Positions 62,429 through 64,000 of a DNA stretch of 64,000 nucleotides are shown here, piece after piece. This stretch comes from Levilactobacillus yonginensis. GTDB lineage: Bacteria; Bacillota; Bacilli; Lactobacillales; Lactobacillaceae. The notes under the pieces are model-generated. The model saw only the letters and a list, made by a program, of their open reading frames with translations. It ran no database searches and was not told where the DNA came from. The number at the start of each line of letters is the position of its first letter. Within the stretch, counting starts at the first letter, position 1. The position numbers and the translations under genes were made by a program. Where the stretch lies: NCBI RefSeq assembly GCF_964065165.1, contig NZ_OZ061549.1, positions 310,001 through 374,000 of the forward strand, written 5' to 3'.

Positions 62429-63574
62429 ATGGCGGAAACGGACTTATATGGCGTATTAGGTGTCGCAAAGGATGCCAGCCAGGATGAAATTAAGAAGGCC
62501 TATCGAAAATTATCAAAGAAGTATCATCCAGATTTGAATAAGGCACCGGATGCGGCGGATAAATTTAAAGCCGTTCAGGATGCGTATGACGTTCTGGGGG
62601 ATGAACAGAAGCGGGCCAATTATGATCAGTACGGTTCAGCCGATGGCTCCCAAGGTTTCGGTGGCTTCAGCGGTGGTCAACAAGGCGGCTTTGGCGGTTT
62701 TGGTGGCGGCGGGGGCTTCGACGACATCTTCAATTCATTCTTTGGTGGTGGCGGTGGCCAACGGAATCCCAACGCACCACGTCCTGGTCGGGACCTTCAG
62801 TACCAGATGGATTTGAAGTTTGAAGAGGCCATTTTTGGTAAGAAAACCAAGATCAAATACACGCGTGAATCACAATGCCATACTTGTGGTGGGAATGGTG
62901 CTAAACCAGGTACTTCACCAGTTACCTGTCACCAATGTGGTGGTTCTGGGTTCGTGACAACTGAGACGAATACTCCCCTCGGTCGGATGCGTAGCCAACA
63001 GCCATGTCCCGTATGTCACGGAACTGGTAAAGAGATCAAGGAAAAGTGCCCAACCTGTGGCGGTTCTGGTCACGAGGAAGAACGGCATGAAGTTGAGGTT
63101 TCCATTCCAGCTGGTGTGGATGATGGTCAACAAATGCGGTTACAGGGTCAGGGTGAAGCCGGCCAAAATGGTGGTGGCTACGGTGACCTGTTCATTATTT
63201 TCCAAGTTGAACCTAGCAAGGACTTCCGTCGTGATGGTACAGAAATCTACTTTAATCAAGACATTTCCTTTGTTCAAGCTACAATGGGGGATGAAGTCAC
63301 GGTCAAAACCGTGCATGGAGATGTTAAGTTGAAGGTTCCTGCTGGTACACAAGGCGGGACTACTTTCCGTTTGAAGGGTAAGGGGGCACCACGCCTACGT
63401 GGTAACGGTAACGGTGACGAACACGTCACTGTGAAAGTCGTAACCCCTAAGAACCTGAACAAGGGTCAGCGAGATGCACTGCGGGACTTTGCCAAGGCCA
63501 GTGGTGAGACGGTCTCGGGGACTGGAAAAGGAAACTTATTTAACAAAATGCGCGATAAATTTAACGAAAATTAG
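62429..63574 (+). CDS. dnaJ: chaperone protein DnaJ (Hsp40)
   Basis: 381 residues. J domain with HPD near 33 ([11 protein letters not shown]), Gly/Phe-rich linker (70-115), four CxxCxGxG zinc repeats ([32 protein letters not shown], about 150-215) and C-terminal substrate domain. Stimulates DnaK ATPase. TTGGGAGGAA before ATG. Confidence 0.99.
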
Positions 63575-63609: not shown

Positions 63610-63642
63610 AAGGCTGCTGAAAATTTTCAGCGGCCTTTTTTG
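63610..63642 (+). terminator. terminator after dnaJ
   Basis: AAGGCTGCTGAAAA and TTTTCAGCGGCCTT stem with one wobble, T run follows. Confidence 0.9.
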
Positions 63643-63701
63643 TGGCCCAAAATGACTTAGACCCGGTCGAAAAGAAAAGAAAGCTTTAAGGTTGAGTAGT
63701 G

Positions 63702-63731
63702 TTGTTTGCAATCCGGTTTTCACAATGATAA
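63702..63731 (+). promoter_or_regulatory. candidate promoter of the dlt operon
   Basis: TTGTTT, spacer 17-18 bases, then ATGATA/TGATAA. Weak -10 match; placement inferred. Confidence 0.4.
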
Positions 63732-63742
63732 CCTCAAAATAT

Positions 63743-63877
63743 AAGGAGCGTAGCTGGGGCTACGATTACTCCTCACCTGGTCAGAAGGATTCGTCGGGGA
63801 AAGTCCCTTCTGAGCAGGGGCGAACGGACGTCGGTTTTGGGGACGAATCAACCGACAAAACTTTGGGGGTGAATTTC
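63743..63877 (+). promoter_or_regulatory. structured RNA leader upstream of dltX with potential kissing loops
   Basis: Three hairpins in a row. P1: AGGAG-CGTAGC (63744-63754) with GCTACG-CTCCT (63759-63773). P2: CCTG-TCAGAAGG (63777-63788) with CCTTCTGA-CAGG (63806-63818). P3: GTCGGTT (63830-63836) with AACCGAC (63850-63856). The loop of P2 (ATTCGTC, 63789-63795) is exactly complementary to the loop of P3 (GACGAAT, 63842-63848). The ribosome-binding site GGGGGTG follows P3 closely. I do not recognise a known riboswitch class. Confidence 0.6.
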
Positions 63878-64000
63878 ATGAGAGCAAAGTGGCTGGCATT
63901 ATGGCATCAGCCAGTAATCGCGTTCATTGGCTGGACGGCATTCTACTTTGTGATTTTGATGGCATTAGTATATTTATACGGCTACAGCGGATTAAACAAC
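63878..64000 (+). CDS. dltX: DltX-like small membrane protein (5' part; runs off the window)
   Basis: The first 41 codons are visible: MRAKWLALWHQPVIAFIGW, a transmembrane helix, then LVYLYGYSGLN. The length so far, single helix and YLYGYSG motif match DltX, the short protein that opens dlt operons (D-alanylation of teichoic acids) and ends in a conserved FIYNEF-type tail, which is off the window. TTTGGGGGTG precedes the ATG. Confidence 0.8.
   Translation, partial: MRAKWLALWHQPVIAFIGWTAFYFVILMALVYLYGYSGLNN

Follow-up and report, generated by a model that had tools for sequence, protein, structure and literature searches.

By tuning the charge of the cell surface, dlt operons influence how well a cell tolerates acid and cationic peptides; in brewing strains the same may apply to hop acids. 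To our knowledge, the control of these operons described so far is exerted by protein regulators that act at the promoter. Among structured RNAs, the purine riboswitch consists of an enclosing helix, P1, and of two hairpins, P2 and P3, that are docked to each other by a loop-loop helix, and the M-box and yybP-ykoY RNAs are ion riboswitches. The VirR regulon of Listeria has been described as including dltABCD (PMC5491136), and comparative genomics has brought out orphan cis-regulatory leader motifs (PMC8632094, PMC7266159). A search of the main text of PMC8632094 for the terms lactobacillus, dlt and teichoic gave no occurrence. Among the matches listed from the open-access literature, the titles and abstract starts do not name a dltX or dlt leader RNA, and the leader that we analyse here is apparently undescribed so far.

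This leader lies near the end of the window, which is the whole stretch of 64,000 nt of Levilactobacillus yonginensis DNA that was analysed, in the gap between dnaJ (62429-63574, Pfam DnaJ) and dltX. A terminator-like hairpin of the intrinsic type (63610-63637; 12 pairs, 6 of them GC, with a T tail) stands 3' of dnaJ, and all window coordinates given for it and for the features below refer to the + strand. It was the one site found by the terminator scan, as compared with a mean of 0.4 in shuffled sequences, and its presence after dnaJ indicates that the dlt operon probably has its own promoter. The first gene of the operon, dltX (ATG at 63878; 63878-64000, cut by the window end), has 49 codons and matches PF12459 (1.3e-22). 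Past the window end (locus L223), dltX, dltA (AMP-binding), dltB (MBOAT), dltC (PP-binding) and dltD are consecutive according to their open reading frames and Pfam domains, and the dltXABCD operon is complete. Just past dltD (L223:9430-10874), two transposase-like frames, one integrase-like and the other a helix-turn-helix partner, were recognized by eye on the opposite strand.

A sequence-only reading of this DNA had placed three hairpins ahead of dltX as a candidate regulatory RNA, with the stem of P3 ending about 8 bases upstream of the Shine-Dalgarno sequence, and these coordinates proved correct. The leader occupies 63744-63864 and measures about 140 nt up to dltX. P1 (63744-63773) has arms at 63744-63754 and 63759-63773, in which CGTAGC pairs with GCTACG in the inner part and AGGAG with CTCCT in the outer part. 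P2 (63776-63818, arms 63776-63788 and 63806-63818) contains one G.G mismatch and is followed by a linker (63819-63829) whose (A/T)CGG core is mostly conserved. P3 (63830-63856, arms 63830-63836 and 63850-63856), with 99.5% of its alignment cells paired, carries a GGGG run within its loop (63839-63842); it ends 8 nt before the Shine-Dalgarno sequence GGGGGTG (63865-63871) and 21 nt upstream of the dltX start codon. The Shine-Dalgarno sequence, 6-7 nt upstream of the start codon, is identical in 35/35 loci of the genus; at all 35 its third letter is G, although the A of GGAGGTG would match better.

The genus set consisted of 35 genomes with one locus each (L003-L037), the window's own included. 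A DNA search of 58 genomes gave a match at the same place in all 34 other genomes of the genus, limited in 8 of these 34 to the end that runs from P3 to the start codon. A covariance model (R1), built on the 27 distinct leaders of what we call group 1, found one strong copy per genome before dltX in the whole genus set (35/35), with best E-values from 1.6e-46 to 3.3e-4, and the next-best match in any of these genomes had an E-value of 0.011. Group 1 comprises 27 genomes that score 98-156 bits with R1, and group 2 comprises 8 genomes (loci L030-L037, but 7 distinct leaders) that score 23-33 bits. DltX is encoded next after the leader at each of the 35 loci examined. Among the matches listed, the leader is 97.1% identical to a record named L. 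yonginensis and 96.5% to one named L. tongjiangensis, dnaJ being 92% identical to both, and its identity to five further named Levilactobacillus species is 68-77%.

Conservation is unevenly distributed along the leader. When 26 group-1 sequences are compared with the window, identity amounts to 59% ahead of the promoter, 60.5% in P2, 70% in P1, 73% in the P2-P3 linker and 77% in P3, and it rises to 97% in the P2 loop strand and to 100% in the GGGG of the P3 loop. This run is also 100% identical in the 8 group-2 sequences. Since the identity of P2 is close to the background and its helix is still kept, the sequence of P2 drifts while its structure persists. The sequence-only reading had staked its proposal on conservation in relatives, and the leader is kept in 35/35 genomes of the genus with helices that covary (see later in the text). 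Judging from these alignments, we conclude that the dlt operon has a structured leader that is conserved and not a product of chance.

A second block of conservation lies in the promoter region. Upstream of and overlapping the -35 region, an operator-like stretch represented by TTAAGGTTGAGTAGTGTTGTTTGCAAT and its relatives (63685-63712) contains GTT(G/A) recurring at a 10-bp step, with GTTG in the window. Its identity to the window is 89.7% in the 26 group-1 sequences and 84.4% in the 8 group-2 sequences, versus 59% further upstream, and its sequence has a single match in the genome at up to 3 mismatches. We describe this stretch as a candidate response-regulator site. The alignment points to GATAAC (63727-63732), which is GATAAT in several relatives, as the probable -10 element; a consensus scan does not include it. 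We infer that transcription starts at about 63738-63741, which would place P1 a few nucleotides from the 5' end of the transcript.

The helices were evaluated by a covariation test in the manner of R-scape, with a G-test, average-product correction and a null in which the same substitutions are replayed on the tree. Among 32 proposed pairs, 9 reached E<0.05 in the 27 group-1 sequences and 12 in all 34 sequences, with P1, P2 and P3 represented. These pairs are 9-50 and 12-43 in P1 (and also 7-52 in all 34), 61-122, 69-115, 68-116 and 70-114 in P2 (group 1), and 145-177, 143-179 and 146-176 in P3 (group 1). In group 1 the summed covariation score was 447, and 400 simulations of the phylogenetic null did not go beyond 88; in all 34 sequences it was 651, versus a null maximum of 99 in 300 replicates. 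When the test was extended across all column pairs, just 1 pair (group 1) or 3 pairs (all 34) were significant, each of them inside the proposed structure. Thus, all three hairpins drawn from the window covary significantly, against the phylogenetic null, in the regions upstream of dltX.

Further comparisons agree with this result to different degrees. In the structural alignment of 34 leaders, which was fitted to the structure itself, 27/30 pairs had changes on both sides, versus 11-17 when the 3' partners were slid. In a plain MAFFT alignment of 27 leaders, such changes were present in 24/38 pairs, versus 10-13 when slid; one of five shuffle measures, that of further pair types, was not exceeded in this alignment, 374 of 500 shuffles reaching it. 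The single 201-nt sequence is modestly more stable than its shuffles (z -1.87), and the z value of the leader core is negative in 34/35 loci (mean -2.49), the core of L011 being no more stable than shuffles. For group 1, RNAalifold draws P1, P3 and a shorter P2, plus an enclosing helix.

The same alignments bear on the level at which the signal acts. It could in principle be a DNA-level or a coding signal, either inverted repeats recognized by a DNA-binding regulator or an upstream start that lengthens DltX at its N terminus, and in the window no stop codon interrupts the dltX frame across the leader. However, the 138 nt upstream of dltX are open in this frame in 8/35 loci only, the stems are broken up in their inner parts, with the spacing of RNA hairpins, and G.U cells outnumber A.C cells (82 versus 33 in the structure-fitted alignment), as expected for selection on the + strand RNA. 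We therefore hold this explanation to be very improbable. A conserved upstream ORF or attenuator peptide was looked for among ATG starts and none was found, the window leader having no ATG and the 35 leaders 0-3 each.

It had also been noticed that the P2 loop (63789-63795) and the P3 loop (63842-63848) contain an exact 7-nt complement, and ATTCGTC and GACGAAT are indeed present at these positions. The pairing can be extended to 8 by G63788:C63849, so that its two strands become GATTCGTC in the P2 loop (63788-63795) and GACGAATC in the P3 loop (63842-63849); for G63788, closing P2 and joining the loop-loop helix are mutually exclusive. A 7-nt complement arose in 0.2% of 200,000 trials in which the letters of both loops were shuffled. 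In 27/27 group-1 loci, ATTCGTC is followed, after the P2 loop, by (A/G)CGAAT. The eighth pair is G-C in 19 of these loci, C-G in 4 and U-A in 2, while two loci (L012 and L016) have a mismatch there. In a dltX-dltA tree of 29 loci the C-G and the U-A cases form two separate clades. After correction, this pair alone had an E-value of 0.37 in group 1 and of 0.13 in all 34 sequences. Another loop-loop pair, at columns 56-109, is U-A in 14 sequences and U-G in 13.

Because hardly any variation occurs in the seven core pairs of the loop-loop helix, covariation does not prove their pairing, and sequence-specific binding could also explain their conservation. A protein or a trans-acting RNA might thus recognize the invariant loops of P2 and P3, their mutual complementarity being secondary. 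However, the eighth pair shows compensatory change in two clades and the complement is kept in 27/27 group-1 loci, and for these reasons we find such a binding site quite unlikely. Docking of P2 and P3 by a loop-loop helix in group 1 is the likely arrangement; as the eighth pair is not significant alone, this relies mainly on exact conservation. The sequence-only reading had taken the kissing loop as typical of ligand- or ion-sensing leaders, but a kissing loop by itself is no pointer to ligand sensing.

The loop-loop complement is absent from 8/35 genomes of the genus, and ATTCGTC is found in 0/8 group-2 loci. An alternative kissing partner was sought in the 7 distinct group-2 leaders; the longest complement, of 6 nt, was found in one of the 7, and no consistent partner emerged. 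In most group-2 leaders, P2 and P3 are instead topped by local apical stems when the sequences are folded singly, and group 2 keeps the GGGG of the P3 loop and the same Shine-Dalgarno sequence. CCGGAAA occurs in the P1 loop region at 6/8 group-2 loci. Species devoid of the complement are natural controls for the effect of docking.

We then considered how the leader could communicate with translation or transcription of dltX. No terminator-like site was found between P3 and dltX, which argues against transcription attenuation. Occlusion of the Shine-Dalgarno sequence by the folding of P3 and the leader, as the earlier proposal had envisaged, is not supported: the mean unpaired probability of the Shine-Dalgarno sequence is 0.39, versus 0.34 with a shuffled leader, in nested folds that ignore the kissing helix. 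With access so close to that of a shuffled leader, no switch is visible in nested folds. Several candidate pairings were rejected. A hairpin between the Shine-Dalgarno sequence and dltX codons 3-5 (ACUUUG/CAAAGU) is lost in relatives with ACCUG or ACUUG, and there is no compensation. An anti-Shine-Dalgarno in or after the 3' arm of P1 (CUCC, UCACC) is strong in L004 and L017 and not in others; anti-Shine-Dalgarno pairing is thus strong in some sequences only and has no compensatory support. Finally, the enclosing helix is drawn by RNAalifold once the CUCAAA strand is included. In this helix, CUCAAA/UUUGGG, whose 3' strand is at the Shine-Dalgarno sequence, at least 4 contiguous pairs are possible in 34/35 loci, and no compensatory change was seen. 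Its 5' strand is probably upstream of the start site; if the -10 element is GATAAC at 63727-63732, the CUCAAA strand would not be transcribed and the enclosing helix would be excluded.

These results are in part those expected of a constitutive mRNA stabilizer and ribosome platform, a leader that blocks a 5' exonuclease, keeps the ribosome site open and senses nothing. P1 would lie within a few nucleotides of the 5' end of the mRNA, P3 leaves 21 nt between its end and the start codon, and with a shuffled leader the Shine-Dalgarno sequence is on average at least as buried. However, the invariant loop letters ATTCGTC and GGGG exceed the needs of a protective hairpin, and we regard a purely constitutive role as a possibility of lesser weight. 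In our favoured interpretation, which we believe to be probably correct, the dltXABCD mRNA begins with a structured 5' leader, specific to the genus, that acts in cis after the start of transcription, on translation or on mRNA stability; this regulatory role and its mode of action are what we infer from the comparisons above. P1 would cap the 5' end of the mRNA, and P2 and P3 would dock via the 7-8-bp loop-loop helix into a compact fold, with the G-run held in the P3 loop. The docked fold would reach to within 21 nt of the start codon, near the expected upstream edge of the ribosome footprint, and its formation or loss could alter ribosome loading on dltX, mRNA decay or both. The leader would thereby constitute a second layer of dlt control beside the control of the promoter.

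The leader was also compared with known families and with other genomes. The Rfam comparison suggested together with the candidate returned no matching family. With the 4227 families of Rfam 15, the whole window gave only a tRNA at the gathering score; the 401 bases around the leader gave five weak matches at E<=10, of which one, of 14 nt and on the other strand, falls in the leader; and the leaders of 11 relatives gave, at E<=1, one chance match outside the leader. With models R1 and R2, no strong copy was found in 372 other genomes of the family. At E<=0.01, 7 of these genomes had weak matches with R1 and 20 with R2, the latter exceeding the number predicted from these rough E-values; the best E-value outside the genus was 1.2e-4, and no match there exceeded 25.9 bits. 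Ten weak-match loci were examined (L069-L073 and L224-L228), and none of them encodes DltX or has the loop pair; the weak matches beyond these ten include 35-nt ones in one genus (g40).

The DltX protein is present in 62/81 sampled genomes of the family, 59 of them outside the genus. At 27 dltX loci outside the genus, no model match exceeded 12.8 bits with all filters off. The idea of a dlt leader common to lactobacilli thus holds within Levilactobacillus (35/35) and fails in the 372 other family genomes and at these 27 dltX loci, and within the genomes searched the leader appears to be restricted to one genus. A collection-wide scan for the loop pair gave at least 118 matching stretches. Among the 80 matches listed, seven are named Levilactobacillus records and the rest are scattered over unrelated phyla; by our own estimate these other matches are at about the chance level and have no bearing on absence elsewhere. 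In one locus of another genus (L100), the 240 nt upstream of dltX contain long GC-rich, partly repeated inverted sequences with no R1 match, which might belong to an unrelated repeat or structured element.

Such a distribution is relevant to a riboswitch or ion sensor, in which the docked P2-P3 would bind a metabolite or a divalent cation and dltX translation would change. D-alanylation is considered to alter how teichoic acids bind cations, and for this reason Mg2+ and Mn2+ would be natural candidates as ligands. A conserved aptamer-like structure, as in riboswitches, is found here in what would be transcribed as a 5' leader. Aptamers typically combine invariant loops with variable, covarying stems, as is the case here; all 35 loci share the GGGG of the P3 loop, and the association with a single operon is maintained in 35/35 genomes. 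However, the distribution is narrow (one genus), 8 genomes lack the loop-loop complement, and no expression platform is seen, neither a terminator nor an anti-Shine-Dalgarno with compensatory change; we judge sensing of this kind rather doubtful. It should be noted that the riboswitch, the stabilizer and the binding site are partly special cases of the favoured structured cis-acting leader, so that the likelihoods given to them overlap. A more specific and still less likely proposal is that of a new Levilactobacillus riboswitch class, in which the docked P2-P3 with a G-run pocket would sense a cation or a cell-wall metabolite and in which, in group 2, local stems would replace the kissing helix while the place of the G-run in P3 is kept. 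If this speculation were true, D-alanylation of teichoic acids would be set through RNA by this class, and not by two-component systems alone.

Independently of ligand sensing, a leader present in every sampled species of this genus of food and beer-spoilage bacteria would add an RNA layer to dlt control, and with about 140 nt and two loops it is a compact and easily tested element. It looks like other structured leader RNAs. Like the purine riboswitch, it has a neighbouring pair of hairpins able to dock loop to loop; in contrast to that RNA, it has a separate 5' hairpin, no supported enclosing helix and no Rfam match. The resemblance to the M-box and yybP-ykoY riboswitches is thematic and lies in the cation-related gene setting, whereas the dlt leader has no Rfam match at the gathering score or, across the leader, at E<=10. 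With the orphan leader motifs, as these are presented in PMC8632094 and PMC7266159, it shares a covarying structured 5' leader and the association with a single operon, but the dlt leader is confined to one genus in the genomes searched. Finally, two-component control of dlt by VirR, as described in Listeria (PMC5491136), targets the same operon, and here too the promoter is preceded by a conserved stretch resembling an operator. However, two-component control is a protein-DNA action at the promoter, whereas the leader would add an RNA element to it.
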